Origin: Styela clava
Lineage: Eukaryota > Chordata > Ascidiacea > Stolidobranchia > Styelidae
NCBI RefSeq assembly: GCF_964204865.1
Contig: NC_135251.1
Span: 15,996,001-16,060,000, forward strand
Reading direction: 5' to 3'
Length of the DNA: 64,000 nucleotides
The stretch's first letter is position 1, and every line of letters starts with the position of its first letter. A program made the translations under genes and the position numbers. The notes under the pieces are model-generated. The model saw nothing but the letters and a program-made list of their open reading frames with translations. It was not told where the DNA came from and searched no databases. Of this stretch, positions 1-29,317 are shown one piece after another.

Positions 1-69
1 TACGTCTGCGTTGGAACTAAGGACATATTCTTTACTGCGTGATCTTTTTTACAAATAGATCTTTCCCGC

Positions 70-76
70 AAAAAAA
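70..76 (-). terminator. Pol III terminator of tRNA-Lys copy 1
   Basis: Seven consecutive T on the minus strand directly follow the tRNA 3' end. Equivalent runs follow the tRNA genes at 1653, 3227, 4775 and 8570. The other five near-complete genes lack one. Confidence 0.8.
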
Positions 77-78
77 GG

Positions 79-151
79 CGCCCGATAAGGGACTTGAACC
101 CTTGACCGTTGGATTAAAAGTCCAACGCTCTACCGACTGAGCTAACCGGGC
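79..151 (-). tRNA. trnK-UUU: tRNA-Lys(UUU), copy 1
   Basis: The 73-nt gene folds as a full cloverleaf. The acceptor is GCCCGGU with AUCGGGC, with discriminator G. The D stem is GCUC/GAGC. The anticodon stem is UUGGA/UCCAA around loop CUUUUAA, giving anticodon UUU. The T arm is AAGGG-UUCAAGU-CCCUU, so the internal A and B boxes are intact. A run of seven T on the coding strand (70-76) lies two bases past the discriminator, a good Pol III terminator. CCA is not encoded, as expected in animals. No intron is present. Confidence 0.93.
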
Positions 152-482
152 TACGGTACGCGTTAAAACAAAAGACATAACGGATGATAAGAATGAAAAT
201 TTTTGCAATAAGTGTGTTTGTGCATTGTGCTATGTCCATCGCCAGCTATACACAATCTAATCTTCTCGGAACAAAGACGCTACAGCGGCTGTGGTAACCG
301 GGCCACGGTCCGCATTAAAGCAAAAGACATAACGGATGATAAAAATCAATGATTTTGCAGCTAAAACAATTATAAGTGTGTTTGTGCATTGTGCTATGTC
401 CAACACCAGCTATACACAATCTAACGTTGATCTTCTCAGCGTGACCTATTTTTACAAATTGAACCTTTCCGGAACAAAGATG

Positions 483-555
483 CGCCCGATAGCGCACTTG
501 ACTCCTTGATCGTTGGATAAAAAGTTCAACACTTTACCGATTAAGCTAACCGTGC
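483..555 (-). pseudogene. Degenerate tRNA-Lys, type B
   Basis: This is the type example of the decayed full-length form. The T arm reads AAGGA-GUCAAGU-GCGCU, which destroys the T stem and the B box. The anticodon stem has A-C mispairing (UUGAA/UCCAA) and the loop is CUUUUUA. The acceptor strand has GCACGGU. It should not be transcribed by Pol III as a tRNA gene. Confidence 0.85.
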
Positions 556-739
556 TACGGTCCGCATTAAAATAAAAAGACATAACAGATGATAAAAATG
601 AATGATTTAGCAGCTAATACAATTATAAATAGGTGTGTTTGTGCATTGTGCTATGTCCAACGCCAGCTATACACAATCAAACGTTAATCTTCTCAGCGTG
701 ATCTATTTTTACAAATTGAACCTTTCCGGAACAAAGAGG

Positions 740-812
740 CGCCCGATAGCGCACTTGACTCCTTGATCGTTGGATAAAAATTTCAACACTCTACCGATTG
801 AGCTAACTGGGC
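740..812 (-). pseudogene. Degenerate tRNA-Lys, type B
   Basis: Same T-arm lesions as the copy at 483. The acceptor begins GCCCAGU and the loop region reads GAAAUUUUUAUCC, which loses the lysine anticodon context. Confidence 0.85.
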
Positions 813-1173
813 TACGGTCTGCATTAAAACCAAAGACATAACGGATGATAAAAGTCAATGATTTAGCAGCTAATACAATTATAAGTGTGTTTGTGCAATT
901 TGCTATGTCCAACGCCATCTATACACAATTCAATCTTCCCGGAACAAAGACGCTCTACCGACTGAGGTAACTCTACCGACTGAGCTAACCGGGCTACGGT
1001 CCGCGTTAAACGAAACATATACCGGATCGTCGGAATCTGTTTATTAAGCAGCTAATACAATTATAAGTGTGATTGTGCATTGTGCTATGTCCAACACCAG
1101 CTATACACAATCTAACGTTAATCTTCTCAGCGTGATTTATGTTTACAAATTGAACTATTCCGGAACAAAGGGG

Positions 1174-1246
1174 CGCCCGATAGCGCACTTGACTCCTTGA
1201 TCGTTGGATGAAAACTTCAACACTCTACCGATTGAGCTAACTGGGC
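1174..1246 (-). pseudogene. Degenerate tRNA-Lys, type B
   Basis: Acceptor GCCCAGU. The anticodon arm GAAGUUUUCAUCC has the loop altered to GUUUUCA. B box destroyed. Confidence 0.85.
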
Positions 1247-1387
1247 TACGGTCTGCATTAAAACCAAAGACATAACGGATGATAAAAGTCAATGATTTAG
1301 CAGCTAATACAATTATAAGTGTCTTTGTGCAATTTGCTATGTCCAACACCAGCTATACACAATTTAATCTTCCCGGAACAAAGACGC

Positions 1388-1414
1388 TCCACCGGCTGTG
1401 GTAACCGGGCTACG
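1388..1414 (-). repeat. 5'-half tRNA-Lys module (representative)
   Basis: Only the acceptor 5' strand and D arm are present, joined directly to spacer. Two forms occur. One is GCCCGGUUACCACAGCCGG followed by UGGAGC; the other is the normal D arm GCUCAGUCGGUAGAGC. On the minus strand they occur near 281, 944 (doubled), 1388, 1551, 1855, 2518 (doubled), 2962, 3125, 3442, 3740, 4120 and 4674. On the plus strand they occur near 5038, 5200 (doubled), 6018, 6188, 6604 (doubled), 7428, 7848, 8150 and 8727. In the first form the base changes keep a 4-bp CCAC/GUGG hairpin. Confidence 0.8.
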
Positions 1415-1652
1415 GTGTGCAGTCAAACAAAAGACATGACTGATGATAAAAATCAATGATTTAGCAGCTAATACAATTATAAGTGTGTTTGTGCATTGTG
1501 CTATGTCCATCGCCAGCTATATACAATCTATTCTTCTCGGAACAAAGACGCTCCAGCGGCTGTGGTAACCGGGCTACGTCTGCGTTGGAACTAAGGACAT
1601 ATTCTTTACTGCGTGATCTTTTTTACAAATAGATCTTTCCCGCAAAAAAAGG

Positions 1653-1725
1653 CGCCCGATAAGGGACTTGAACCCTTGACCGTTGGATTAAAAGTCCAAC
1701 GCTCTACCGACTGAGCTAACCGGGC
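1653..1725 (-). tRNA. trnK-UUU: tRNA-Lys(UUU), copy 2
   Basis: Identical in sequence to copy 1 and located 1574 bp away in the next higher-order unit. The T7 terminator is at 1644-1650. Confidence 0.93.
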
Positions 1726-2056
1726 TACGGTACGCGTTAAAACAAAAGACATAACGGATGATAAGAATGAAAATTTTTGCAATAAGTGTGTTTGTGCATT
1801 GTGCTATGTCCATCGCCAGCTATACACAATCTAATCTTCTCGGAACAAAGACGCTACAGCGGCTGTGGTAACCGGGCCACGGTCCGCATTAAAGCAAAAG
1901 ACATAACGGATGATAAAAATCAATGATTTTGCAGCTAAAACAATTATAAGTGTGTTTGTGCATTGTGCTATGTCCAACACCAGCTATACACAATCTAACG
2001 TTGATCTTCTCAGCGTGACCTATTTTTACAAATTGAACCTTTCCGGAACAAAGATG

Positions 2057-2129
2057 CGCCCGATAGCGCACTTGACTCCTTGATCGTTGGATAAAAAGTT
2101 CAACACTCTACCGATTAAGCTAACCGTGC
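2057..2129 (-). pseudogene. Degenerate tRNA-Lys, type B
   Basis: Counterpart of 483-555 in the second higher-order unit. It differs by one base near 2107. Confidence 0.85.
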
Positions 2130-2313
2130 TACGGTCCGCATTAAAATAAAAAGACATAACAGATGATAAAAATGAATGATTTAGCAGCTAATACAATTAT
2201 AAATAGGTGTGTTTGTGCATTGTGCTATGTCCAACGCCAGCTATACACAATCAAACGTTAATCTTCTCAGCGTGATCTATTTTTACAAATTGAACCTTTC
2301 CGGAACAAAGAGG

Positions 2314-2386
2314 CGCCCGATAGCGCACTTGACTCCTTGATCGTTGGATAAAAATTTCAACACTCTACCGATTGAGCTAACTGGGC
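2314..2386 (-). pseudogene. Degenerate tRNA-Lys, type B
   Basis: Counterpart of 740-812 in the second higher-order unit, with the same lesions. Confidence 0.85.
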
Positions 2387-2747
2387 TACGGTCTGCATTA
2401 AAACCAAAGACATAACGGATGATAAAAGTCAATGATTTAGCAGCTAATACAATTATAAGTGTGTTTGTGCAATTTGCTATGTCCAACGCCATCTATACAC
2501 AATTCAATCTTCCCGGAACAAAGACGCTCTACCGACTGAGGTAACTCTACCGACTGAGCTAACCGGGCTACGGTCCGCGTTAAACGAAACATATACCGGA
2601 TCGTCGGAATCTGTTTATTAAGCAGCTAATACAATTATAAGTGTGATTGTGCATTGTGCTATGTCCAACACCAGCTATACACAATCTAACGTTAATCTTC
2701 TCAGCGTGATTTATGTTTACAAATTGAACTATTCCGGAACAAAGGGG

Positions 2748-2820
2748 CGCCCGATAGCGCACTTGACTCCTTGATCGTTGGATGAAAACTTCAACACTCT
2801 ACCGATTGAGCTAACTGGGC
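2748..2820 (-). pseudogene. Degenerate tRNA-Lys, type B
   Basis: Counterpart of 1174-1246 in the second higher-order unit. Confidence 0.85.
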
Positions 2821-3226
2821 TACGGTCTGCATTAAAACCAAAGACATAACGGATGATAAAAGTCAATGATTTAGCAGCTAATACAATTATAAGTGTCTTT
2901 GTGCAATTTGCTATGTCCAACACCAGCTATACACAATCTAATCTTCCCGGAACAAAGACGCTCCACCGGCTGTGGTAACCGGGCTACGGTGTGCAGTCAA
3001 ACAAAAGACATGACTGATGATAAAAATCAATGATTTAGCAGCTAATACAATTATAGGTGTGTTTGTGCATTGTGCTATGTCCATCGCCAGCTATATACAA
3101 TCTATTCTTCTCGGAACAAAGACGCTCCAGCGGCTGTGGTAACCGGGCTACGTCTGCGTTGGAACTAAGGACATATTCTTTACTGCGTGATCTTTTTTAC
3201 AAATAGATCCTTCCCGCAAAAAAAGG

Positions 3227-3299
3227 CGCCCGATAAGGGACTTGAACCCTTGACCGTTGGATTAAAAGTCCAACGCTATACCGACTGAGCTAACCGGGC
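3227..3299 (-). tRNA. trnK-UUU: tRNA-Lys(UUU), copy 3, D-stem variant
   Basis: Same as copy 1 except that the D-stem strand GAGC reads UAGC, leaving one unpaired D-stem position. The T7 terminator is at 3218-3224. The same base change occurs in the plus-strand copy at 8570, so the two are likely inverted duplicates. It may be functional, but less surely. Confidence 0.75.
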
Positions 3300-3527
3300 T
3301 ACGGTCCGCGTTAAAACAAAAGACATAACGGATGATAAAAATGAAAAATTTTGCAGCTAATACAATTATGGGTGTGTTTGTGCATTGTGCTATGTCCAAC
3401 ACCAGCTGTATACAATCTAATCTTCCCGGAACAAAGACGCTCCACCGGCTGTGGTAACCGGGCTACGGTCTGCGTATTATTTAATGCTTGATCTTTTTTA
3501 AAATTGAACCTTCCCGGAACAAAGAGG

Positions 3528-3600
3528 CGCCCGATAAGGGACTTGAACCCTTGACCGTTGGATTAAAAGTCCAACGCTCTACCGACTGAGCTAACCGGGC
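3528..3600 (-). tRNA. trnK-UUU: tRNA-Lys(UUU), copy 4, no close terminator
   Basis: The cloverleaf and the A and B boxes are the same as copy 1. The 3' flank begins CTCTTTGTTCCGGG and has only three T in a row. The first T4 lies about 25 nt downstream (near 3500-3503), so transcripts would carry a longer trailer. Confidence 0.88.
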
Positions 3601-3901
3601 CACGGTCCGTATAAAGCAAAAGACATAACGGATGGTAAAAATCAATGTTTTAGCAGCTAATACACATATAAGTGCGTTTCTGCATTGTGATATGTCCAAC
3701 GCCATCTATACACAATCCAATCTTCCCGGAACAAAGACGCTCTACCGACTGAGCTAACCGGGCCACGGTCCGCGTTAAACGAAACACATACCGGATCGTC
3801 GGAATCTGTTTATTAAGCAGCTAATACAATTATCACAATCTAACGTGAATCTTCTCAGCGTGATTTATTTTTACAAATTGAACCTTTCCGGAACAAAGAG
3901 G

Positions 3902-3973
3902 CGCCCGATAGCGCACTTGACTACTTGATCGTTGGATAAAAAGTTCAACACTCTACCGATTGATCTAACCGTC
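3902..3973 (-). pseudogene. Degenerate tRNA-Lys, type B, 72 nt
   Basis: The acceptor strand is shortened (GACGGU in place of GCCCGGU) and the D arm reads GAUC. T-arm lesions are shared with the other type B copies. Its plus-strand partner is 7602-7673. Confidence 0.85.
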
Positions 3974-4207
3974 TACGGTCTGCATTAAAACAAAAGACAT
4001 AACAAATGATAAAAATGAATGATTTAGCAGCTAATACAAGTATAAATAAGTGTGTTTATGCATTGTGCTATGTCCAACGCCAGCTTATACACAATCTAAT
4101 CTTCCCGGAACAAAGACGCTCCACCGGCTGTGGTAACCGGGCTACGGTCTGCGTATTATTTAATGCGTGATCTTTTTTACAAATTGAACCTTCCCGGAAC
4201 AAAGAGG

Positions 4208-4280
4208 CGCCCGATAAGGGACTTGAACCCTTGACCGTTGGATTAAAAGTCCAACGCTCTACCGACTGAGCTAACCGGGC
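4208..4280 (-). tRNA. trnK-UUU: tRNA-Lys(UUU), copy 5, no close terminator
   Basis: Full tRNA sequence with flanks of the terminator-less class (CTCTTTGTTCCGGG). Upstream it abuts the spacer variant GGACCGTGGCCCGG, also seen at the plus-strand copies 5888 and 7296. Confidence 0.88.
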
Positions 4281-4460
4281 CACGGTCCGCATTAAAGCAA
4301 AAGACATAACGGATGATAAAAATCAATGATTTTGCAGCTAATACAATTATAAGTGTGTTTGTGCATTGTGCTATGTCCAACACCAGCTATACACAATCTA
4401 ACGTCAATCTTCTCAGCGTGACCATATTTTCACAAATTGAAACTTTCCGGAACAAAGAGG

Positions 4461-4533
4461 CGCCCGATAGCGCACTTGACTCCTTGATCGTTGGATAAAA
4501 AGTTTAACACTCTACCGATTGAGCTAACCGGGC
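4461..4533 (-). pseudogene. Degenerate tRNA-Lys, type B
   Basis: The acceptor 5' strand is still GCCCGGU, but the T arm and anticodon stem carry type B lesions. Nearly identical to the plus-strand copy at 8318-8390. Confidence 0.85.
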
Positions 4534-4774
4534 TACCGTCGGCATTAAAACAAAAGACATAACGGACGATAAAAATCAATGATTTAGCAGCTAATACAAT
4601 TATAAGTGTGTTTGTGCATTGTGCTATGTCCAACGCCAGCTATACGCAATCTAATCTTCTCGGAACAAAGACGCTCCAGCGGCTGTGGTAACCGGGCTAC
4701 GTCTGCGTTGGAACTAAGGACATATTCTTTACTGCGTGATCTTTTTTACAAATAGATTCTTCCCGCAAAAAAGG

Positions 4775-4847
4775 CGCCCGATAAGGGACTTGAACCCTTG
4801 ACCGTTGGATTAAAAGTCCAACGCTCTACCGACTGAGCTAACCGGGC
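4775..4847 (-). tRNA. trnK-UUU: tRNA-Lys(UUU), copy 6
   Basis: Intact cloverleaf. The terminator run has six T (4767-4772). This is the last minus-strand gene before the orientation switch. Confidence 0.92.
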
Positions 4848-4900
4848 TACGGTACGCGTTAAAACAAAAGACATAACGGATGATAAGAATGAAAATTTTT

Positions 4901-4993
4901 GCAGCTAATACAATTATAAGTGTGTATAGATTGTGTATAGATGGCGTTGGACATAGCAAATTGCACAAACACACTTATAATTGTATTAGCTGC
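4901..4993. repeat. Inverted repeat at the strand-switch point
   Basis: A 24-base arm at 4901-4924 (starting GCAGCTAATACAATTATAAG) is exactly complementary to 4970-4993. The 45-base middle carries spacer sequence ending in a new plus-strand unit. All array units left of it face minus and all right of it face plus, so this is the fold-back junction of the array. Confidence 0.85.
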
Positions 4994-5378
4994 TAAATCA
5001 TTGACTTTTATCATCCGTTATGTCTTTGGTTTTAATGCAGACCGTAGCCCAGTTAGCTCAATCAAAAGATTAACGTTAGATTGTGTATAGCTGGTGTTGG
5101 ACATAGCACAATGCACAATCACACTTATAATTGTATTAGCTGCTTAATAAACAGATTCCGACGATCCGGTATATGTTTCGTTTAACGCGGACCGTAGCCC
5201 GGTTAGCTCAGTCGGTAGAGTTACCTCAGTCGGTAGAGCGTCTTTGTTCCGGGAAGATTGGATTGTGTATAGATGGCGTTGGACATAGCAAATTGCACAA
5301 ACACACTTATAATTGTATTAGCTGCTAAATCATTGACTTTTATCATCCGTTATGTCTTTGGTTTTAATGCAGACCGTA

Positions 5379-5451
5379 GCCCAGTTAGCTCAATCGGTAG
5401 AGTGTTGAAATTTTTATCCAACGATCAAGGAGTCAAGTGCGCTATCGGGCG
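5379..5451 (+). pseudogene. Degenerate tRNA-Lys, type B
   Basis: Same variant as 740-812 (GCCCAGU acceptor, GAAAUUUUUAUCC arm) on the other strand. Confidence 0.85.
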
Positions 5452-5635
5452 CCTCTTTGTTCCGGAAAGGTTCAATTTGTAAAAATAGATCACGCTGAGA
5501 AGATTAACGTTTGATTGTGTATAGCTGGCGTTGGACATAGCACAATGCACAAACACACCTATTTATAATTGTATTAGCTGCTAAATCATTCATTTTTATC
5601 ATCTGTTATGTCTTTTTGTTTTAATGCGGACCGTA

Positions 5636-5708
5636 GCACGGTTAGCTTAATCGGTAGAGTGTTGAAATTTTTATCCAACGATCAAGGAGTCAAGTGCGCT
5701 ATCGGGCG
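5636..5708 (+). pseudogene. Degenerate tRNA-Lys, type B
   Basis: GCACGGU acceptor as at 483, combined with the GAAAUUUUUAUCC arm of the 740 variant. This mosaic suggests exchange between units. Confidence 0.85.
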
Positions 5709-5887
5709 CCTCTTTGTTCCGGAAAGGTTCAATTTGTAAAAATAGGTCACGCTGAGAAGATCAACGTTAGATTGTGTATAGCTGGTGTTTGACATAGCAC
5801 AATGCACAAACACACTTATAATTGTATTAGCTGCAAAATCATTGATTTTTATCATCCGTTATGTCTTTTGCTTTAATGCGGACCGTG

Positions 5888-5960
5888 GCCCGGTTAGCTC
5901 AGTCGGTAGAGCGTTGGACTTTTAATCCAACGGTCAAGGGTTCAAGTCCCTTATCGGGCG
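5888..5960 (+). tRNA. trnK-UUU: tRNA-Lys(UUU), copy 7
   Basis: First complete plus-strand gene. All stems pair and the anticodon is UUU. It belongs to the terminator-less class. A TTTT lies about 30 nt downstream (GTTCAATTTTAAAAAAG). Confidence 0.9.
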
Positions 5961-6352
5961 CCTCTTTGTTCCGGGAAGGTTCAATTTTAAAAAAGATCAA
6001 GCATTAAATAATACGCAGACCGTAGCCCGGTTACCACAGCCGGTGGAGCGTCTTTGTTCCGAGAAGAATAGATTTTATATAGCTGGCGATGGACATGGCA
6101 CAATGCACAAACACACTTATAATTGTATTAGCTGCTAAATCATTGATTTTTATCATCAGTCATGTCTTTTGTTTGACTGCACACCGTAGCCCGGTTACCA
6201 CAGCCGGTGGAGCAACTTTGTTCCGGGAAGATTAGATTGTGTATAGCTGGTGTTGGACATAGCAAATTGCACAAAGACACTTATAATTGTATTAGCTGCT
6301 AAATCATTGACTTTTATCATCCGTTATGTCTTTGGTTTTAATGCAGACCGTA

Positions 6353-6425
6353 GCCCAGTTAGCTCAATCGGTAGAGTGTTGAAGTTTTCATCCAACGATC
6401 AAGGAGTCAAGTGCGCTATCGGGCG
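6353..6425 (+). pseudogene. Degenerate tRNA-Lys, type B
   Basis: Inverted equivalent of 1174-1246, including the GUUUUCA loop. Confidence 0.85.
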
Positions 6426-6786
6426 CCCCTTTGTTCCGGAATAGTTCAATTTGTAAAAATAAATCACGCTGAGAAGATTAACGTTAGATTGTGTATAGCT
6501 GGTGTTGGACATAGCACAATGCACAATCACACTTATAATTGTATTAGCTGCTTAATAAACAGATTCCGACGATCCGGTATATGTTTCGTCTAACGCGGAC
6601 CGTAGCCCGGTTAGCTCAGTCGGTAGAGTTACTTCAGTCGGTAGAGCGTCTTTGTTCCGGGAAGATTGGATTGTGTATAGATGGCGTTGGACATAGCAAA
6701 TTGCACAAACACACTTATAATTGTATTAGCTGCTAAATCATTGTCTTTTATCATCCGTTATGTCTTTGGTTTTAATGCAGACCGTA

Positions 6787-6859
6787 GCCCAGTTAGCTCA
6801 ATCGGTAGAGTGTTGAAATTTTTATCCAACGATCAAGGAGTCAAGTGCGCTATCGGGCG
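6787..6859 (+). pseudogene. Degenerate tRNA-Lys, type B
   Basis: Inverted equivalent of 740-812. Confidence 0.85.
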
Positions 6860-7043
6860 CCTCTTTGTTCCGGAAAGGTTCAATTTGTAAAAATAGATCA
6901 CGCTGAGAAGATTAACGTTTGATTGTGTATAGCTGGCGTTGGACATAGCACAATGCACAAACACACCTATTTATAATTGTATTAGCTGCTAAATCATTCA
7001 TTTTTATCATCTGTTATGTCTTTTTGTTTTAATGCGGACCGTA

Positions 7044-7116
7044 GCACGGTTAGCTTAATCGGTAGAGTGTTGAACTTTTTATCCAACGATCAAGGAGTCA
7101 AGTGCGCTATCGGGCG
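7044..7116 (+). pseudogene. Degenerate tRNA-Lys, type B
   Basis: Inverted equivalent of 483-555 (GCACGGU acceptor, CUUUUUA loop). Confidence 0.85.
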
Positions 7117-7295
7117 CCTCTTTGTTCCGGAAAGGTTCAATTTGTAAAAATAGGTCACGCTGAGAAGATCAACGTTAGATTGTGTATAGCTGGTGTTGGA
7201 CATAGCACAATGCACAAACACACTTATAATTGTATTAGCTGCAAAATCATTGATTTTTATCATCCGTTATGTCTTTTGCTTTAATGCGGACCGTG

Positions 7296-7368
7296 GCCCG
7301 GTTAGCTCAGTCGGTAGAGCGTTGGACTTTTAATCCAACGGTCAAGGGTTCAAGTCCCTTATCGGGCG
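7296..7368 (+). tRNA. trnK-UUU: tRNA-Lys(UUU), copy 8
   Basis: Intact gene of the terminator-less class. It marks where homology with the left-side higher-order unit switches from a 5'-half module to a complete gene. Confidence 0.9.
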
Positions 7369-7601
7369 CCTCTTTGTTTCGGGAAGGTTCAATTTGTAAA
7401 AATGAACACGCATTAAAGAATACTCAGCCGTAGCCCGGTTACCACAGCCGGTGGAGCGTCTTTGTTCCGGGAAGATTAGATTGTGTATAAGCTGGCGTTG
7501 GACATAGCACAATGCATAAACACACTTATTTATACTTGTATTAGCTGCTAAATCATTCATTTTTATCATTTGTTATGTCTTTTGTTTTAATGCAGACCGT
7601 A

Positions 7602-7673
7602 GACGGTTAGATCAATCGGTAGAGTGTTGAACTTTTTATCCAACGATCAAGTAGTCAAGTGCGCTATCGGGCG
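7602..7673 (+). pseudogene. Degenerate tRNA-Lys, type B, 72 nt
   Basis: Inverted equivalent of 3902-3973, with the same shortened acceptor (GACGGU) and GAUC D arm. Confidence 0.85.
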
Positions 7674-8016
7674 CCTCTTTGTTCCGGAAAGGTTCAATTT
7701 GTAAAAATAAATCACGCAGAGAAGATTCACGTTAGATTGTGTATAACTGGTGTTGGACATTGCACAATGCACAAACACACTTATAATTGTATTAGCTGCT
7801 CAATAAACAGATTCCGACGATCCGGTATGTGTTTCGTTTAACGCGGACCGTAGCCCGGTTAGCTCAGTCGGTAGAGCGTCTTTGTTCCGGGAAGATTGGA
7901 TTGTGTATAGATGGCGTTGGACATATCACAATGCAGAAACACACTTATATGTGTATTAGCTGCTAAAACATTGATTTTTACCATGTGTTATATCTTTTGT
8001 TTCAATTCAGACCGTA

Positions 8017-8089
8017 GCCCGGTTAGCTCAGTCGGTAGAGCGTTGGACTTTTAATCCAACGGTCAAGGGTTCAAGTCCCTTATCGGGCG
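8017..8089 (+). tRNA. trnK-UUU: tRNA-Lys(UUU), copy 9
   Basis: Intact gene of the terminator-less class. The upstream spacer is a diverged variant (GTGTTATATCTTTTGTTTCAA). Confidence 0.9.
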
Positions 8090-8317
8090 CCTCTTTGTTT
8101 CGGGAAGGTTCAATTTGTAAAAATTAACACGCATTAAAGAATACGCAGCCGTAGCCCGGTTACCACAGCCGGTGGAGCGTCTTTGTTCCGGGAAGATTAG
8201 ATTGCGTATAGCTGGCGTTGGACATAGCACAATGCACAAACACACTTATAATTGTATTAGCTGCTAAATCATTGATTTTTATCGTCCGTTATGTCTTTTG
8301 TTTCAATGCAGACGGTA

Positions 8318-8390
8318 GCCCGGTTAGCTCAATCGGTAGAGTGTTAAACTTTTTATCCAACGATCAAGGAGTCAAGTGCGCTATCGGGCG
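8318..8390 (+). pseudogene. Degenerate tRNA-Lys, type B
   Basis: Inverted equivalent of 4461-4533. The anticodon arm reads UAAACUUUUUAUCC. Confidence 0.85.
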
Positions 8391-8569
8391 CCTCTTTGTT
8401 CCGGAAAGTTTCAATTTGTAAAAATAGATCACGCTGAGAAGATTAACGTTAGATTGTATACAGCTGGTGTTGGACATAGCACAATGCACAAACACACTTA
8501 TAATTGTATTAGCTGCAAAATTTTTCATTTTTATCATCCGTTATGTCTTTTGTTTTAACGCGGACCGTA

Positions 8570-8642
8570 GCCCGGTTAGCTCAGTCGGTATAGCGTTGGA
8601 CTTTTTATCCAACTGTCAAGGGTTCAAGTCCCTTATCGGGCG
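8570..8642 (+). tRNA. trnK-UUU: tRNA-Lys(UUU), copy 10, variant
   Basis: It carries the UAGC D-stem variant of copy 3, an anticodon loop CUUUUUA (A to U next to the anticodon) and a U in the variable region (CUGUC). The acceptor and T arm are intact, and T7 follows at 8645-8651. Position 37 is normally a purine in tRNA-Lys, so function is doubtful. Confidence 0.6.
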
Positions 8643-8908
8643 CCTTTTTTTGCGGGAAGGATCTATTTGTAAAAAAGATTACGCAGTAAAGAATATGTCC
8701 TTAGTTCCAACGCAGACGTAGCCCGGTTACCACAGCCGCTGTAGCGTCTTTGTTCCGAGAAGATTAGATTGTGTATAGCTGGCGATGGACATAGCACAAT
8801 GCACAAACACACTTATAATTGTATTAGCTGCTAAATCATTGATTTTTATCATCCGTTATGTATTTTGTTTTAATGCGCACCGTAGCCCGGTTAGCTCAGT
8901 CGGTAGAG

Positions 8909-8923
8909 CGTTGGACTTTTAAT
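8909..8923. repeat. Target-site duplication, 5' copy
   Basis: CGTTGGACTTTTAAT matches 9780-9794 exactly. It covers the 5' anticodon stem and the anticodon loop of tRNA-Lys. A direct repeat of this length with a poly(A) tail is the signature of target-primed reverse transcription. Confidence 0.92.
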
Positions 8924-9733
8924 TAATTCTCGGCGAAAAAGACCTGTGCAAACAGCCTCACAGAACGTCGCACAACCTACCAACATAGTTGCTGATGTGA
9001 CTGAAGTATCGACCTCTGAATCTGAATCCAAATGTCTGCGAGAGATCAAAGACTGGTCAGAATGTGAGGACGTCGAAAAGATCAGCCCGCTCAAAACACC
9101 ACCATCGAGACCGGCCAGGCAATTGTTCCGACTCAAAGAAACATCCACCATCGGCAACACCCCGTTCAACCCGCCTTCAATGGGGAAAGCGTATGTTAAG
9201 GTGAAGATTCACAACATCGAGTCTTTTGATACAACAACATCATCGGTCTCCGAGGAAACACCAGATGAAACAACATCTGCTCCAGCATATCTGGAATCAA
9301 ATATGCAGCCGCCAATTGTCGATCTGACCAGTAAACGTAGCAGGGAGGACACAACATCTACAGACTCGTCAACATCCAAAACTACCAACAAGAGAGCAGT
9401 AGGCAAAAAGAAAAAATAACAGTGAGTGCCTCAACCTAGGTTTCGACCGCGAACCATCAAAATTCCCTTCTCGTCTTTTCATTTCGGGCATGATATGTTA
9501 CAATTTGGCCTTTAAACAAATTTCCCCGATCAAACGCCCAGTTGATGGCGTTAAATCTCAACTACGGTAATACCATCTAACAAGTAACGGAAGTGATGAA
9601 AGGAATTCTACCACAACACATGGTATACAAAATGGTGATCTCTATTACAAAGAGAATTGATCCATAAACTTCCGTCGGCACAGTCTGGGTATGAAGGCAT
9701 TTGGGCTGGATTCCAGACTTGTCGTCCTGATCC

Positions 9734-9779
<46 letters not shown>
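8924..9779 (+). mobile_element. Internally deleted LINE copy with 44-nt poly(A)
   Basis: The insert begins within an ORF1-like frame, contains that frame to its stop at 9419, then a short piece resembling the start of ORF2 (ATGGCGTTAAAT at 9545, compare ATGGCATTAATC at 11463). About 180 bp of 3' sequence and an uninterrupted A44 (9736-9779) follow. Almost all of ORF2 is missing, so the copy is non-autonomous. The long pure A tract argues for a recent insertion. LINE-A at 10975 belongs to the same family, judged by the shared ORF1 C-terminal half. Confidence 0.88.
8925..9419 (+). CDS. LINE ORF1-like protein fragment
   Basis: The frame is open from the 5' junction (no start of its own; the first codons read NSRRKRPVQTA) to TAA at 9417-9419. 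It is low-complexity and Ser/Thr-rich with a core STIGNTPFNPPSMGKAYVKV and a lysine-rich end (AVGKKKK). The core and Lys-rich end recur in LINE-A (STIGNTPFRPPQKGSAYVKV, TLKKKK). I recognise no RRM or zinc knuckle. The name rests on its position before ORF2 and the resemblance between the two copies. It is 5'-truncated, so the full length is unknown. Confidence 0.7.
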   Translation, partial: NSRRKRPVQTASQNVAQPTNIVADVTEVSTSESESKCLREIKDWSECEDVEKISPLKTPPSRPARQLFRLKETSTIGNTPFNPPSMGKAYVKVKIHNIESFDTTTSSVSEETPDETTSAPAYLESNMQPPIVDLTSKRSREDTTSTDSSTSKTTNKRAVGKKKK

Positions 9780-9780
<1 letters not shown>

Positions 9781-9794
9781 GTTGGACTTTTAAT
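9780..9794. repeat. Target-site duplication, 3' copy
   Basis: Second copy of CGTTGGACTTTTAAT, directly after the poly(A) tract. Confidence 0.92.
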
Positions 9795-9934
9795 CCAACG
9801 GCCAAGGGTGCGAGTCCCTTATCGGGCCCCTCTTTGTTCCGGGAAGGTTCAACACACTTATTTTATAATTGTATTAGCTGCTAAATCATTGATTTTTATC
9901 ATCTGTTATGTCTTTTGTTTTAATGCAGACCGTA

Positions 9935-9974
9935 GCCCGGTTAGCTCAATCGGTAGAGTGTTGAACTTTTTATC
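9935..9974 (+). pseudogene. Array-end tRNA-Lys 5' part, broken in the anticodon arm
   Basis: GCCCGGTTAGCTCAATCGG and onwards to GAACTTTTTATC, then an abrupt change to TCAGTCAGTCAGTAATCAG-type sequence unrelated to the array. The break lies within two or three bases of the LINE insertion point in the neighbouring unit. Confidence 0.85.
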
Positions 9975-9984
9975 AGTCAGTCAG

Positions 9985-10270: not shown

Positions 10271-10974
10271 ACAACAAGTATCATATATACGTTAATTTGA
10301 AAATAAATATAAATACGTCAAGGCATTCCAACCAGGTATGCCCAGTAATCTCGCGTTTCAACAACAACAAAACAAGAAACGACTCCGTGCACCAATAATC
10401 GTAGTAGCCATGACGATAGCTGCGTTATGGTAAAGTCACAATGGTACCATTGTGAGGTGACTGTGGCCGTATGTAGAACATTGTATGGTGCAGGGCTACA
10501 GTTGTTTAGGTATCAATGGTAAAAATGAAGTTTCACGAACAGGAAGCCTACCAGTAGTATGGTATGCATGCAACGATAGTACCGGTAGTCATAAATAATT
10601 TAACCTTTTATGGTAAGAAGAAAATTGAACTTCAGTGTGTAACTGGAAGGCACATGATCAATGAATAAATGGTATTCTACAAAATCAAGGTAGGATTAAA
10701 TTTCATGTGGAACTAACCACTTCATACAAAACATGGAAAAAGCAAAGGTAGGTAGGTTGATAAAAATCTAATGTCAGTCAATTTATGACATAACGATGCC
10801 AAATGTACAAAGATAAAAAAAACAATTTACAATCGAATATGGTTTAACATTAAAATGATGTTATTAAGGGTGCCAGAGACCAAGATCTTAGTAACTTAGA
10901 TCGGGCTCAAATATTACCAATATATAACTGACTAAATTACATGACATCACAGTGCATGAACTATGCATGGTTTC
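10271..10974. other. Non-coding, repeat-like flank of LINE-A
   Basis: AT-rich sequence with stop codons in all frames. I see no gene or tRNA. It may be remains of older repeats between the array end and the truncated 5' end of LINE-A. Confidence 0.5.
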
Positions 10975-10979
10975 TTCTT

Positions 10980-11315
10980 ACACTAAAACGACAAGATCAA
11001 CCCAGGAAATTGAAACAGAGCTCTACAATCGGAAACACTCCCTTTCGTCCACCTCAGAAAGGGAGTGCATATGTGAAAGTGCTAATCCATAATTATGAGA
11101 GGAGCGACTCACTATTTAGCGATTCAACAGATAAAATATTATCTGCCCCTGCACACTTGGAAAGTAACCAAACATTAACAAAAATCGTGGACATAACAGA
11201 TTCAAACTTGGAAAATACGGATTTTAATACTAAAAGGATAAGACAAAGCACTTCATCGGAGTCGTCGTTCTCAACGATTCCAGAGGAGAAAAGAACACTG
11301 AAGAAAAAGAAATGA
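10980..11315 (+). pseudogene. LINE-A ORF1 C-terminal remnant
   Basis: It carries the core SSTIGNTPFRPPQKGSAYVK followed by a Ser/Thr-rich stretch and EKRTLKKKK before TGA. It matches the ORF1 fragment of the neighbouring LINE copy in order and in the Lys-rich end. Upstream the resemblance stops at about 10980, the apparent 5' truncation. Confidence 0.7.
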
Positions 11316-11462
11316 CGTGAGTGCCAAATTTTTCTGTTTCGTTAAACACGTACCCTCGCTACGTCATATTATTGACATTAGATAAGTTTAAAGAAACGAA
11401 TTATGTAAACAGCTACCACAAAGCTCAGTTATATTGAGTTGATTACTTACTTAATTTGTGCA

Positions 11463-14400
11463 ATGGCATTAATCAAAATAGTATCTTTAAATTCAAATGG
11501 TTTTCAACATCGCTTGGATACTCTAAGAAATTTCATTGGACACGAGAGGCCTAATATCTTGTGTGTGCAAGAGGTGCACAGAATAGAAAAAACATCGGTC
11601 GCGCAGTGGGCGGAATCTTTGGGTTATAATGTATTCGTTAACACGCTGGACAAATTTGATAATTATTATACTAGCTTTAGACAAGGGACTCTGATCATGA
11701 CAAAGTTTGAAAATACTATAATCCCGGCCACATATACAATTCATATACTGCATCGTCTGGATAGCATCGAAATTGAAATTGACAATAATGTAATCAAGAT
11801 ATTCAACGTATATGCACCAGCTCAGAATGGACCGGAGAAAACTAAATTATTTGAAAACTTGGTGGCAACCCTAAAAAACTATACCGACTCATACGACCTA
11901 CTAATTGTAGGGGACTTCAATTGCGTTCTGGAACCACTCGACACGTTAATTACGAAAAACTTCAAACTACGGCCGCCAGAGAAAATACTTAAAAGTTTCA
12001 TCCAAAACAATAATATATTTGATACCTACTGTAAAAAATACCCCCAAAAACAAATATTTACTCATTATTTCGGAAAACAAGGACGCAGGATTGACAACAT
12101 CTACAACTCATATAATCCGCAACATTTGATATCACATATCGGGCACATACCAAACACTATAGCTGACCATCTCCTCTGTCCCACAATCAAATTAAAGCAA
12201 ATCAAGAAAATCCGCTGGGGGAAAGGGACCTGGCGGAACAACCTAACGCTCTACCACGACCCTATCTTTATTAGTATTATAAAAAACGTATATGAACATG
12301 CTCTGGCCGACATGGAGAACTTTAACAATATACAAGATTGGTGGGATTATTTAAAAAACAAAATTAAAAAAGTTTCGATTGCTTACTCTAAAACCAAAAC
12401 CCTGGACAAAAAAAAACAATATTGCCCGAATTCGTAAACAAATAGATGTCACCATCAATGAAGGCTTAGAGGGAAATGTAATTAAGATTGGAAATCTGAA
12501 AGCACAACTTAAATTAATGTTAGATGAGCGTAAACAATTGGATTTATTGATGGCTAATATGGAAAATTTAGAGAAAAATGAAAAACCAACAAGGATTTTC
12601 TACTCAAAAATAAAACAAAGAGCGAAACAAACTACTATAGAAAAACTAAAATCCAAACACAACACAATGACCTCAAACGAAGACGGGGTCATGTCGGAAA
12701 TCGAAGAATTCTATACAGAGCTGTGGAAAAATGAAAATGAGCCAGATATACGCCACCAGAAATACTATCTTAAATTAATAGGCCAAACTCAAATAAACGA
12801 AGAAGACAACAACCTCCTTGAACAACCGGTTACCCGGGAAGAGATCTACAATGCAATACAATGACTGCGTAACAACAAAACTCCCGGCATCGATGGTCTT
12901 TCGAAAGAGTTTTATACTACATTCTGGGACATAATAAAAACGCAGCTTATACAACTAATAAATAATATATTACTTTTCGGCCCATTTCCCAAATCATCAT
13001 CTATCGCTAAGGTAAAGTTACTATACAAGAAAAACGACGAGACGAAACTAAAAAACTGGCGACCTATTACCACTCTTAATATGGACTACAAAATCATCTC
13101 CAAAATCATAGTGAATCGTTTGGCCCCTATACTGAATAAAATTATAAGTCCCACACAAAAATGTTCCCTTTTGGATCGAAATATGTCGGATATCCATTAT
13201 AACATCGATGCCGTCATAAGGCATTGTAAACAAAAGGAAATACCAGGAACCATCGTCCTAATTGATAACCTTAAAGCATTTGATCGAGTAAATCACAATT
13301 TTCTATTTCGAACCCTGCAATATATCGGACTCGGGAACAAGACTTTGAAAGCTAAAAAAAATATGTATCGCGACAATAAAACTATCGTAGACTTAAACGG
13401 TAGACTATCTAGAGAGATAAATATAAGGAGAGGCATAAAGCAAGGATGCCCCTTGAGTATGCTCCTTTACGCCGTTATAGTTGAACTTCTGGCAAGATCA
13501 ATACGCGAAAATACAAACATACGCGGAATAAAGCTCGGACGCCATGAGTTTAAATTGGACCAGTTTGCAGATGACGTCACCTTCGCTGTACGAGACCAAA
13601 ATTCAATTGCACAAATCTTCCAAGAACTATATAACTTCCAATTAGCTTCCGGACAACAAATTAATCAGGATAAGACAGAAATATTATGTATTACAAAAAC
13701 ATCCCAAAATTTAATAACCAGGTCCCAATACAACAAATATATAAAAGAAACAGTAAAGATACTTGGAATAAAATTTGGACGTAAACAAATAGATAGAATA
13801 TGGGACGAAATAAAAACCAAGCTGATTGGAACCTTGAATTCTATAAAACCCAGACATCTCACTTGGCATGGAAAAATTTTAGTAATCAACTCTCTTATAA
13901 TGTCTATAGTAACTTTCCATGCAAAAGTAAAGACCATTTCGCCAAAAACAACCAAAGAAATAGAAAGCATACTATTTAAATTCCTCTGGCTGCCGGAAAA
14001 GATCGAGGCAATTGGAAGAAAAAAGCTCCAACTACCATTGACGGATGGGGGTTTAAACATGGTGGAGGTAAACTCCAAGATTGAGACATGTCAGGTAGAA
14101 AAGCTGGAAGCCTTTATGATTGGTAAAGACTTAAATCAATTCTGGCACCACGAAGGCCTGTATTCATTAGGATCAAAAATCAAATTTATAAATAAGGATT
14201 TATACTCCAACTCCACTCCCCACAGCAACGTAATCCCTATATACTGGGCTCATCTGTTCAAGATCTTTCAGAAAATTGACCTCACTCGTGACCAGTGGAT
14301 AACAGCAAGGCATAGACACATATACCAATCACTTAAAGAATATACTAGACAACAGTTACGGGAACAGCCACCACAACAACTAGCCATAAACTGGGAGGAA

Positions 14401-14946
14401 GTACACCTCTTCAATACAAGCTATATATCAAATGTAGAAAGAATTGTCTCCTATCGAATCACCCGAAATGGATACATCTTCGGGGAAAAGAAGCGGGGGA
14501 TGACGATCCGGTTCAACCCATCGGGCAAACTGAAAATCCTAAACTGTAAGTTATGGAAGGACAAATCGGACAACACCAAGCACATCTTTCTCAATTGTAA
14601 AACAACAGGTAATTATATTACAGAAATCTTGAACTGCCTCAATGCCATACTGGACACCCAAATTATCATAAATAAAGAACAGATTTTTTATAATAGTTAC
14701 AATGGCCCACATCAAATTGCTGTGACCAAAGCCTTTGTTCTACTGAAAAAGAACGTAATTAAATTAAAACTGCAACTAGACACCCTGGATCGATATCTGG
14801 CCCCCACAGACGATGACATCATACCCAAAACTGTAACCCAAATCATGGAATTCCTCATAATGATAAAACATAAATTCAATGACGTGCAACCTTTAGGACT
14901 AAGGAGTAACTGGAAGGAAATACTAAACGGCTATCTGACGGTCTAG
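11463..14946 (+). pseudogene. LINE-A ORF2: endonuclease plus reverse transcriptase, disrupted
   Basis: The start is ATG at 11463 (MALIKIVSLNSNGFQ). The N-terminal APE-like nuclease shows SLNSNGF, CVQEVHR (catalytic Glu), VGDFNCV (Asp/Asn), GRRIDNIY and IADHLLCP (His). Reverse transcriptase follows: RPITTLN, LIDNLKAFDRV (motif A), GIKQGCPLS (motif B), QFADDVTF (catalytic FADD), QINQDKTEI and ILGIKFG. A poorly kept C-terminal Cys/His segment ends with KHIFLNC. A frameshift lies in the A-run near 12408-12417, and an in-frame TGA lies at 12862-12864 between EIYNAIQ and LRNNKTPGIDG. Otherwise the frame is open for about 1160 codons. Confidence 0.9.
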
Positions 14947-15408
14947 CAAAATAAAATAGCAACTTGGGAACTTTTAAACAGCCACCATAAATGGTAGACC
15001 AAACCAAAATTCAAAACTGCTCGACGAACTTTGTTTTTAGCCCCGATAATACATTCAATACAGCGGAAATGATGAATCGGGATCTTCTCGGTGGATGTCA
15101 TGCTGCGTTATACGCGGTATGTACGGAAGCCGGGGTGGCCGAAGTTGTGCCCTGCTCTGCATGGCATGGACGGAAGCCCCAGGTTTAAGCGTATGCATTG
15201 CATATGTAGAAGCCCGTGGTGGAAGTCTGTGCTTTGCTGATGCGCGGCACATACTGAGGCCCACGGAAGTGTATGACTACTGCATGCAGTAGCATGCTTA
15301 TGAAGCGATTGACCGATATAACTCGGATATGACGTGTCTTAAAGACACTGATCTGAGTCTGGGAAAACTGATCTGCCATAAAATATAAAAAAAATAAAAT
15401 AAAAAAAA

Positions 15409-17774
15409 ACCAACGGCTTTCGGCGCCGTTTGAAAGTTTTGGAAAGTTTCATTAAATATACTAATCCAAATGTTCTTTGTGTGCAAGAAGCACATAGAAT
15501 AGATAAAGACTCAGTGATTCTTTGGGCAAATGATTTCGGATACAATATACATTTCAATACTATAGGAAAATTCGACAAGCATCACACAAATTCTAAGCAA
15601 GGAACCGCTATTTTAGTCAAAATAGAAAACTCAATATTGCCGTCAACTTATACAATCCATATAAAGGACCGCATAGCATGTGATAGCATAGAAATTCGTG
15701 TCGATGATCACATTGTAAAAAATTTTAATGTATACGCCCCGGCTCAAGACAGACCGATTAAGACCGAATTCTACCAGAATCTGGTAAAAATACTGATAAA
15801 CTACTGTGACACCGACGAGATGTTACTCTTTGGCGATGTCAATCTAGTACTAGACCAAGCCGACACCTCAAACCCCAAAAATTTCAAAATTCGGGCCCAG
15901 AAAGAATCTTTAAACAATTTATTGAGCAGAACAACTTTTCGGACACCTTCAGAAAGAAATACCCCAAAAAACAAATTTATACATTTCTATTCCGATCACA
16001 TGGCCGTCGAATTGACAATATATATAATTCTAAAAATTTGGACCACCTAATTTCAAGAATTGAACACACAGCAAACACAATATCCGATCACCTGCTGTGT
16101 ACGGTGATTGAACTTGTGCAAATGAAAAAGGTCCGATGGGGGAGGGGCACGTGGCGCAATAATTTATCACTATACAGAGACCCAAAATATGTGGAAATTA
16201 CAAAAAACGTATACAAGGCCGCTCTTGCTGAATTAGACAATTATGACGTAATACAAGAATGGTGGGATATTTTGAAAATGAGAATAAAAAAGAGCACAGT
16301 AGCATACTCGACAGGGGTCACCGGCTGTGTGGCCATCGTTAGTGTGCTAAGCGTTAGGTTCGCAGGTTAGAATCTCATGCGAGGATAGTTATGTGCAAGA
16401 GACTTGCTGGACCCCTTGCTGTTGTTGGGATGGCTTCCTTTGCCATCAAGTCTATGCTTACGAAAACGAATAACTTACCTATTCCAATACCCGACATGAA
16501 ATGGTAACCAGACGAGAGGCCTTGGTTCGCCATATGGTTAAGCCGTCTTATCGACCATCTTCTCCCCCGGGATAAATATGTAAATCCCATCCTATCCTGA
16601 GTTTATGTCAAAAATGTTGATTCACAAAGATAGGTTGAACGAAACAATGGTCTCGTAAAATAGAATTGCTGTATGATTTGAATCGCGAGCTTTTTCTGCC
16701 CGTACTGCGCTGGATAGTTAGCGCGGTAGCGTGACAAGCCGTGAAATATCTTTTCGCTTTGCCGTCGCTACAATCGCCCCACAAATGAGACACGCGCAGG
16801 CTGTTTTCATGTTGGTAAAAATATATCCACCCCCAATCATCATGAAAATGGTGGGTTTTTCATCGTTTTCTGCCATTTTTCTTTGGAATCAATAAATATA
16901 TTATTGCTGCTCCACAAACCAACGGACAAGAAAAAGCGCGGGTTCGTAGTAAGTGATATCAGCGTGATGTCATAATTGGAAGAGTGTTAATTGACCCGTC
17001 ACATTACTGAGGGTCAAATAAAAATCAGGTTGTTGGCTACAATAATTAATATAGTGCCATTCCCGATTCCCATATAAATGTGATTTATACAAGAATAGCA
17101 GGACAAAATTTAATCGATGCAGCTTACTCATAAGCGCCGTTATTAAGCTCTGTTTGGAACAGACCTGCGGGCGACTCATATGGTCTTCACGGGCGACTTG
17201 GTGCCCACGGGCAACGCGTTAGTGACCCCTGCTCTAAGAACAAAGCAAAAACAAAACGTAATGCGATAACGCAGCTATGGGAAAGTCTAGACAAACTCAT
17301 TAATGAAGGAAAAAATGAGAATCTGCCGCAAATCGAAAGAATAAAACTTCAACTAAAAACATCACAAGAAGAGCGCAACCAACTAGATATCCTAATGGCC
17401 AAAATGAGTGACATGGAGCAACACGAAAAGCCAACAAAAACTTTCTTTGAGAAAATTAAAAGAAGGACAAAACAAACTATCATAGAAAAGCTGATCTCTC
17501 AAAATAACACCATAGTCACCGGCGAGGACGAAATAATATCGGTGATAGACTTCTACTCAACCCTGTGGGGAAAAGAGCACCAAACAAACGAGCTATATCA
17601 ACACCAATATCTCTCCTTAATGAGTCATACACAAATAACAGAGGACGAAAACCGCACATTGGAACAACCCGTCTCCAGTGAAGAAATTCTTGATACAATA
17701 AAGTCCATGCGCAACAACAAGTCCCCCGGCCTGGACGGCCTGAGTAAAGAATTTTATACAACTCTATCCGATTG
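15409..17774 (+). mobile_element. LINE-B, truncated related LINE copy
   Basis: The first residues after the LINE-A tail (TNGFRRRLKVLESFI) align with SNGFQHRLDTLRNFI of LINE-A, so this copy is 5'-truncated inside the endonuclease. It keeps CVQEAHRI, FGDVNLVL, GRRIDNIY in another frame and SDHLLC, then breaks at 16311 where a hAT-like element sits. It resumes at 17232 and ends at 17774 in the region before motif 1 of the reverse transcriptase (MRNNKSPGLDGLSKEFY). A frameshift lies near 15915. No 3' end or poly(A) is seen, so the 3' part has been lost. Confidence 0.85.
16312..17231. mobile_element. hAT-like element inside LINE-B
   Basis: The ends are CAGGGGTCAC and GTGACCCCTG, an exact 10-bp terminal inverted repeat with the CAGGGG start typical of hAT elements. 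Near the 3' end, motifs such as GGGCGACTTGGTGCCCACGG resemble ends of animal hAT families. It separates the two parts of LINE-B precisely (CATACTCGA to CTCTAAGAAC). An 8-bp duplication CTCTAAGA would fit if the 5' copy lost three bases. No transposase frame, so it is non-autonomous or decayed. Confidence 0.75.
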
Positions 17775-17842
17775 ATCACACTCTGATGAAAATGGGGTTT
17801 GAATCCGAGATCTTCAACCTGCCAGCGCAGTCATATACTAGG

Positions 17843-18231: not shown

Positions 18232-18352
18232 TACTAGGGAGAAAAAAACTCCTGGAAAAAAGTGGAAAGACGAATGAAATATTGAAAAATCCAAACAGAA
18301 TGTGTTCGTGTTGATCAAATCGTATGTTTCAGATATGTAACGAAAGTGTCTG

Positions 18353-18393
18353 GTCTGATAAGAGACTTGAACCATTGACCGCTGGATTAAAAG
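18353..18393 (-). pseudogene. tRNA-Lys 3' half, left palindrome arm
   Basis: It reads CTTTTAATCCAGCGG then the T arm (ATGGTTCAAGTCTCTTATC) on the minus strand. It begins exactly at the anticodon loop; the 5' half is absent and sequence before it is unrelated. The T stem and acceptor have a few substitutions. Confidence 0.85.
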
Positions 18394-29308: not shown

Positions 29309-29317
29309 AGATTCAAG

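Follow-up and report, generated by a model that had tools for sequence, protein, structure and literature searches.

The 64,000-nucleotide window analyzed here (Styela clava, contig NC_135251.1, positions 15,996,001 to 16,060,000) begins with a tandem and inverted array of tRNA-Lys(UUU) genes, one copy of which is split by a fragment of a long interspersed element (LINE) with a poly(A) tail; degraded relatives of that element lie downstream (table 1). Both junctions of the insertion can be read directly. An exact 15-bp target duplication, CGTTGGACTTTTAAT, occupies 8909-8923 and 9780-9794 and corresponds to tRNA nt 25-39, that is, the 5' anticodon stem and the loop. The tRNA-Lys 5' part reaches nt 39 and the gene restarts at nt 25 beyond the insert, with the nick between nt 24 and 25. 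The insert itself is composed of one additional T (8924), 811 bp in which the stop codon of open reading frame 1 (ORF1) is found at 9417-9419, and A44; when the flanks are joined minus one duplication, ARAGORN recognizes the empty site as a 75-base tRNA-Lys(TTT). The initial annotation had described a LINE copy with A44 and a 15-bp duplication in the anticodon loop of a tRNA-Lys(UUU) gene, and the junctions and the empty site bear out the insertion as described. Strictly, however, the element is no LINE: only the end of ORF1 and the 3' untranslated region (UTR) are present, and its full-length relatives lack ORF2, making it a non-autonomous half-LINE. That the target is one of many copies of a tandem tRNA array holds as well, with 10 tRNA-Lys(TTT) genes in the window and 209 matches to the tRNA-Lys anticodon-arm pattern genome-wide (0 for the reversed pattern); array-type matches extend back to C2:15.88 Mb.

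Table 1. Features of the window around the split tRNA-Lys gene
Feature	Position	Strand	Basis
Tandem and inverted tRNA-Lys(UUU) array: 10 ARAGORN genes and pseudogene-like units	77..8644	.	ARAGORN, repeat comparison
tRNA-Lys(UUU) gene, 5' part, ending in the first 15-bp target duplication copy	8885..8923	+	Read directly; ARAGORN on joined empty site
5'-truncated ORF1-only half-LINE copy: ORF1 C-terminal part and 3' UTR ending CTGATCCGT	8925..9735	+	Sequence comparison, 99.3% DNA identity over 811 bp to the L010 element
Poly(A) tail, A44	9736..9779	+	Read directly
Second target duplication copy (9780-9794) and 3' part of the split tRNA-Lys gene	9780..9830	+	Read directly; ARAGORN on joined flanks
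Diverged tRNA-Lys copy, 5' part, broken in the anticodon arm by another repeat	9935..9975	+	Read directly
Degraded autonomous relative: ORF1 end 10932-11315, endonuclease 11409-12437, reverse transcriptase part 12865-14946, 3' UTR to about 15409	10932..15409	+	ORFs, sequence comparison, Pfam
Third related LINE copy, fragments, interrupted	15403..17775	+	Sequence comparison

Two copies elsewhere in the genome that are 98% identical to the window copy (L010 and L013) extend upstream of 8925 into an open ORF1 (frames of 417 and 419 aa, about 410 aa from the first ATG) and have no ORF2 ahead of the poly(A), and a more distant full-length relative (L020:1649-3475) has an ORF1 with an open frame of 514 aa, about 490 aa from the first ATG. 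All three are full-length copies with ORF1 and poly(A) and without ORF2, which is how we define a half-LINE. Because L010 and L013 continue upstream to ORF1 and lack ORF2, we class the family as an ORF1-only half-LINE, with the window copy as one of its 5'-truncated, non-autonomous members. Half-LINE ORF1 matches zf-CCHC with an E value of 0.00059, just short of the Pfam cut-off. A whole-genome search with the 3' end of the element (window 9600-9900), in which 40 of 184 first-look candidates were scored, revealed at least 41 places; this and all other genome counts are lower bounds. The 3' flanks of all of these were read: 14 begin as an SL-type (spliced-leader-type) intron, 13 of them clearly and one as an SL-like variant (L011), and of these 14 copies L046 lacks poly(A); only the window copy is followed by tRNA-Lys, two copies by a U1 small nuclear RNA (snRNA)-like stretch, and one by the ORF1 of another LINE, while nothing was identified in the remaining 23 flanks. 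Among 20 short flank loci submitted to Rfam there was no U2 match and a U1 match in two. The U1-like stretch (L045 and L047) was considered as a third target and dropped, these sites being chimeric chains of LINE pieces without poly(A). At four places on C14 (L045, L047, L069, and L070) the end of an ORF2, the start of an ORF1, and 3' UTR pieces are chained in this way to the U1 snRNA-like stretch. Clear duplications are absent in most of the truncated dispersed copies examined.

The sequence after the element at the 14 SL-type places begins GTAAGCTAGAGCCC, GTGAGTTGTGGACC, or with a variant of these. SL units occur in tandem, with a spacing of 254-308 bp on C4 and 490 bp on C6, and have the exon ATTATTCGCTATTTGATTAAG, ATTATTGCTGTTTTGATTAAG, or a variant. 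Compared with the Ciona spliced leader quoted in an excerpt of PMC7986045, the first of these exons agrees at 15 of 16 nt after one 2-nt deletion, a level that none of the 63,982 18-mers in the window reaches; this similarity suggests a tunicate host. The exon together with a splice donor gives 1,164 matches in the genome versus three for the reversed pattern, and 47 further copies of the exon (control 0) have a base other than G next to it. Sixteen of the latter resemble SL units with a mutated donor; the other 31, counted with a pattern that misses continuations beginning with G and compared without their tails, are scattered and vary in how they continue. These scattered exons are likely to be copied trans-spliced RNAs, including one repeat family; 10 of them continue with TTTGCAGAT and two with a close variant. 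We regard the tandem units as putative SL RNA genes because of the Ciona similarity, the exon and donor counts, and the scattered exons. The units have a splice donor, and five of the six unit types folded form a hairpin followed by a U-rich stretch (unit B folds differently). Rfam searches of two loci with SL units returned only matches far under the family cut-offs, and a literature search by the letters of the SL exon returned no paper on a spliced leader. Full-length half-LINEs in the arrays have the 5' junction GATTAAG/GCAACCC (in one case GTAACCC) and the 3' junction A(n)/GTAAGC, or GTGAGT in the C6 form, and are placed between exon and intron, separating the exon from its splice donor. 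The 5' junction pattern is found at 47 places with two or fewer mismatches (control 2), 31 of them exact; the C4 array accounts for 12 of the 47, the C6 array for 4, and other places for the remaining 31. The home of the half-LINE family is thus the putative SL RNA gene, at its exon/intron border.

A partner element with ORF1 and an endonuclease-reverse transcriptase ORF2, which we refer to as the SL-LINE, is found 5 bp into the SL intron (intron +5) in the C4 array (L071 with L026, and L016), and in the C6 array its 3' end (L028) occupies the same intron position. The 3' end CTGATCCGTA and SL gene targets are common to half-LINE and SL-LINE. Further LINE lineages are located at about intron +14 to +18 behind SL exon and intron bases (L016:6489-7679, L026:6762-7675, and L017:5734-6260), and the exon in front of the L026 element is of a type not usual for its promoter. 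Pfam identifies RVT_1 both in SL-LINE ORF2 and in the degraded autonomous relative in the window, as well as Exo_endo_phos (E value 1.6e-12; 11409-12434), an AP-like (apurinic/apyrimidinic) endonuclease, in the latter; SL-LINE ORF1 has no zf-CCHC Pfam match, though C-x2-C motifs are visible. In its endonuclease region the window relative is 72% identical in amino acid sequence to the SL-LINE and 58% identical to the tRNA-LINE described below, and its reverse transcriptase part is 61% identical to the former and 62% (first part) and 49% (last part) to the latter. Among PDB structures, human L1 ORF2p matches the SL-LINE ORF2 part best (E value 4.4e-50; 1.8e-25 for R2). An L1-type ORF2 with an AP-like endonuclease is therefore supported for this group by sequence similarity.

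Searching the whole genome for poly(A) followed by CGTTGGACTTTTAATCCAACG with three or fewer mismatches identified three places (control 0), the window copy and two others. The first of these (L092) is a tail-only insert in another tRNA-Lys unit of the window's array, in which the nick falls at the position seen for the window copy, nt 24/25, and the 14-bp duplication copies differ at one base. The second (L093) is the 3' end of an autonomous element, the tRNA-LINE, in a tRNA-Lys(CUU) gene on C9. Its ORF1 is about 490 aa, and its ORF2 is open over 898 aa in L094 and continues to its stop in the overlapping L093; amino acid identity to the SL-LINE is 55-59% in ORF2 and 44% in ORF1. For a census of its 3' region, 40 of 310 candidates were scored, giving at least 17 copies at 97-100% identity (query included), the 3' flanks of which were all read. 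Thirteen continue with the 3' part of a tRNA gene: Lys(UUU) in the array (5 copies), Cys (4), Lys(CUU) (1), Ser (1), Val(CAC) (1), and Val(TAC) (1), where the Cys and Val(CAC) identities are presumed from the resemblance of the 3' halves. Flanks joined at inserts were recognized by ARAGORN as tRNA-Lys(CTT), Ser(GCT), Val(TAC) (with a chosen cut point), Gly(GCC), and two tRNA-Lys(TTT); the tRNA-Gly gene contains a second half-LINE, full length, at about the same tRNA position (L068). Copies of the tRNA-LINE on C10 have tRNA genes within a few kb. Judged from these flanks, the sister LINE targets the anticodon arm of several tRNA genes, so that the suggested tRNA-Lys specificity fails for the half-LINE family in the window, but the broader idea of tRNA genes as a target holds for a relative.

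The 5' end of the tRNA-LINE was found at six places (control 0), and the leaders of all six were read. In three of them (L115, L118, and L119, the last two being near-identical places), tRNA-Ser nt 2-41 occurs in a form identical to that of the tRNA-Ser gene split at L116/L100, and ahead of it stands tRNA-Lys nt 14/15-33, exact in L115 and with one change in L118 and L119; the L115 leader additionally includes a diverged tRNA-Val nt 1-65, and L117 is preceded by what we take to be a tRNA-Glu-like 5' part. tRNA-Lys nt 18-30 is present near ORF1 in all six leaders, in L094 at the junction with the host tRNA-Lys. In the simplest reading, tRNA-LINE RNA would begin inside or upstream of the host tRNA gene and gather its 5' part with each move; alternatively, the reverse transcriptase may have picked up these pieces by jumping to tRNA halves as it copied.

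We propose, with a probability of about 0.7, that the window copy is an SL-based half-LINE placed in tRNA-Lys by the enzyme of the tRNA-LINE, a reading that combines an SL-gene home, RNA from the SL promoter, and a sister LINE targeting tRNA arms. The half-LINE does not itself encode ORF2. Its RNA would be made from the SL promoter, begin with the SL exon, and be poly(A)-tailed; the tRNA-LINE ORF2 protein would nick the tRNA-Lys gene between nt 24 and 25 and reverse-transcribe this RNA, and by stopping early it would leave a 5'-truncated copy. We infer the tRNA-LINE enzyme as the maker of the insertion given the existence of a LINE that targets tRNA genes and has a related 3' end (CTGATCCG). 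It is unlikely, though by no means negligible, that the insertion was instead an off-target event of the SL-LINE enzyme acting as sole mobilizer and accepting the end of the tRNA D arm, GGTAGAG, for its resemblance to the end of the SL exon, GATTAAG. The 3' end and SL genes that the half-LINE and the SL-LINE have in common fit such an event, as does a loose G-R-T-W-R-A-R that unites SL GATTAAG, tRNA-Lys GGTAGAG, tRNA-Gly GGTAGAA, and GGTAAAG at a dispersed site (L024); but that pattern was defined post hoc, the 15-nt identity to the SL site is ordinary, being equalled at 20% (tRNA-Lys) and 39% (tRNA-Gly) of window positions, and no more than 2 of 10 tested sites fall within the 3% tail. An off-target origin is weakened because the SL and tRNA sites barely resemble each other, and a sister LINE that is itself found in tRNA genes exists. 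A nick motif shared by SL and tRNA sites, weak on the 15-nt identity test, was accordingly retained only as part of this alternative.

That half-LINE RNA comes from the SL promoter was assessed from element 5' ends. Outside the arrays there are 31 such ends, of which 26 were fetched and 25 counted, one with two mismatches (L066) being left out. Sixteen of the 25 match at least 20 nt of the 21-nt SL exon with one or no mismatch, the longest run being 25 nt, and in all 16 (two of which, L058 and L059, are one locus duplicated) the exon type agrees with the element subfamily. Clear duplications accompany an SL-exon 5' end in L022 (GGAAATACTCCTT before ATTATT), L024, and the tRNA-Gly copy. Since the matches stop by 25 nt, none follows the SL promoter far, and half-LINE RNA apparently starts at the SL start, with the SL exon at its head, and would be driven by the SL promoter. 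For the SL-LINE, the exon end followed by GTAAGCT and the element body was matched at 16 places (control 1). Ten of these were read and eight counted, L088 repeating L087 and L090 lying in the C6 array; five of the eight match at least 20 nt of the exon, including one in an SL-like unit (L084). Another, L089, has a 15-nt exon match and lies inside an ORF1 of the group, and L085 and L114 mark the two ends of a single SL-LINE copy, which lies at an unrelated site and is flanked by a 17-bp duplication, CGACGCAGCACTCTCTC.

Could the exon on dispersed half-LINEs come from trans-splicing of an ordinary transcript rather than from co-transcription with the SL gene? The scattered SL exons joined to many sequences are what copied trans-spliced RNAs would leave, splicing could also make the half-LINE exon/body joint AAG/G, and one partial match (L049, 12 nt) combines exon end and subfamily differently. 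We nevertheless consider this improbable: array copies have exactly the same exon/body joint, exon type tracks subfamily in every copy matching at least 20 nt, and SL-LINE copies at non-SL sites keep the exon with its unspliced intron bases. Co-transcription from the SL gene appears to be the better reading because trans-splicing would remove the GTAAGCT that the dispersed SL-LINE copies keep. In the C6 array, L028 combines a C6 promoter with an exon of the C4 type, and the exons of L090 and L017 are hybrids, as if the exon of the cDNA had been joined to the exon of the target by homology; gene conversion within the array may be an alternative.

Several observations weigh against the origin of the window copy proposed above. 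The dispersed sites of the half-LINE have no common motif and only a weak likeness to the SL site, and a loose endonuclease could also explain hits in tRNA genes. The 5'-end pattern requires the last 9 nt of the exon, leaving only the further upstream match informative, and 9 of the 25 dispersed 5' ends match less than 20 nt; one of the partial matches, L049, has a C4-type exon end with the other subfamily. Four of the 17 near-identical tRNA-LINE copies, all on C13, have no tRNA 3' flank, and neither do the four less similar copies that were read lie in a tRNA gene (L111-L114, 81-89% identity; 27 such rows). Within the set of five tRNA-Lys copies, and likewise within the four tRNA-Cys copies, the junctions are shared, with minor variation in the length of the tail and at single bases; each set probably arose by amplification rather than by independent insertions, which reduces the count to about six of eight independent tRNA-LINE sites in tRNA genes. 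Nick positions are also less uniform than the two tRNA-Lys(UUU) inserts suggest: among the four tRNA inserts compared, the window copy and L092 are exactly at nt 24/25, and L068 and L093 lie within 1-2 nt, with poly(A) ambiguity, while other tRNA-LINE nicks are spread over the anticodon arm from about nt 24 to 37.

Two further explanations have very little left in their favor. The initial annotation proposed the tRNA-Lys anticodon region as the target of the window family, and the exact 15-bp duplication over the anticodon arm, the tail-only insert nicked at the identical position in another tRNA-Lys unit, and the full-length relative in tRNA-Lys(CUU) would agree with this; the check suggested there, a tabulation of the bases after the poly(A) of genomic 3' ends, refutes it, with 40 of 41 flanks outside tRNA-Lys, and the relative that targets tRNA genes is a different element whose hosts are not only tRNA-Lys. 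It is just as improbable that insertions, common as they are for LINEs, fell by chance into a large tRNA-Lys array where selection may be weak, given a nick identical to the base in two tRNA-Lys units and given that all 32,363 first-look candidates of our tRNA search (63 scored), even if all counted as genes of 75 bp each, would make up about 0.65% of the genome versus about six of eight independent tRNA-LINE sites.

Known LINEs with a specific target use rRNA, snRNA, SL, or single tRNA genes. SLACS, CZAR, and NeSL-1 are LINEs of SL exons, half-LINEs of the HAL1 type are ORF1-only, poly(A)-tailed, and rely on another LINE, and Keno, Mutsu, and Dewa are LINEs of the Tx1 clade. The half-LINEs described here resemble HAL1 in all three properties and differ in being based in SL genes with the SL exon as 5' leader; the SL-based elements resemble SLACS, CZAR, and NeSL-1 in inserting into SL genes (14 of 41 half-LINE 3' ends, and the partner LINE) and differ in the AP-like Exo_endo_phos endonuclease and in the site, which is the exon/intron border or the first intron bases. 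According to the consulted portion of PMC4640811, target-specific LINEs outside the Tx1 and R1 clades have a restriction-like endonuclease, with SL exons as a named target, and we place the present group outside these SL LINEs because the endonuclease type differs. Keno inserts into U2 snRNA, Mutsu into 5S rRNA, and Dewa into a tRNA-Leu spacer (excerpts of PMC4640811 and PMC3706591). All three likewise use multicopy small RNA genes, Keno also with an AP-like endonuclease, but the present group goes into the SL RNA gene and into several tRNA isoacceptor genes at the anticodon arm, neither of which those excerpts report for them, and the flanks we identified are SL, tRNA, and U1-like rather than the U2 of Keno. 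tRNA genes themselves are the targets of NeSL-1_TV (tRNA-Pro), LIN15_SM (tRNA-Arg), and LIN25_SM (tRNA-Glu) (PMC4640811, in part), each with one tRNA, whereas the tRNA-LINE uses Lys(UUU), Lys(CUU), Ser, Val, and Cys and has another type of endonuclease. L1-type LINEs attracted to tRNA genes include TRE5 and TRE3 of Dictyostelium, which insert outside the gene, 40-54 bp upstream or 40-150 bp downstream (PMC5911963, in part), unlike the insertions here, which are within the gene in the anticodon arm. Dada elements do insert inside tRNA and snRNA genes, with 6-7 bp duplications and some flanks from two tRNA genes (PMC3706591, in part), but they are DNA transposons and involve neither reverse transcription nor poly(A). 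Titles and abstract starts in the open-licence literature yielded no LINE with an AP endonuclease that occupies either SL genes or several tRNA genes at their anticodon arms, and a group of AP-endonuclease LINEs that uses SL and many tRNA genes appears to be new among target-specific LINEs.

More tentatively, and at somewhat less than even odds, the elements may form one radiation of L1-type LINEs that insert between the promoter and the body of small-RNA genes, are transcribed by the host gene, and produce RNA with a host 5' part, either the SL exon or the tRNA 5' part; the leader would be a record of travel, SL and tRNA targets would have been switched, and ORF1-only riders would reach either address. 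If this is true, the SL branch would make mRNA bearing a spliced leader without trans-splicing, and the leader of the tRNA branch would record successive hosts, such as Val - Lys - Ser - Lys - ORF1 in L115. For such elements, an RNA led by the SL exon points to an easy source of both promoter and translatable leader, and the tRNA pieces in tRNA-LINE leaders may record past host genes. Relatives within one genome at SL intron +0, +5, and further in, and in several tRNA anticodon arms, provide a natural comparison of endonucleases.

Within the tRNA-Lys array (window 1-9000) there are long inverted copies, for example 1851-3152 versus 6021-7322, which are 98% complementary. The repeat that breaks the diverged tRNA-Lys copy in its anticodon arm is in minus orientation, has a ACTGATTACTG-type tail, and extends from 9976 to about 10280; a short relative of it is found in another diverged tRNA-Lys unit (L120). 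Two diverged tRNA-Lys-like 3' halves in opposite orientation (18340-18390 and 28206-28256) flank a large inverted duplication, and the region 20300-39700 contains a gene family in tandem and inverted copies with ORFs of 120-297 aa, which we take to be basic-helix-loop-helix-like.

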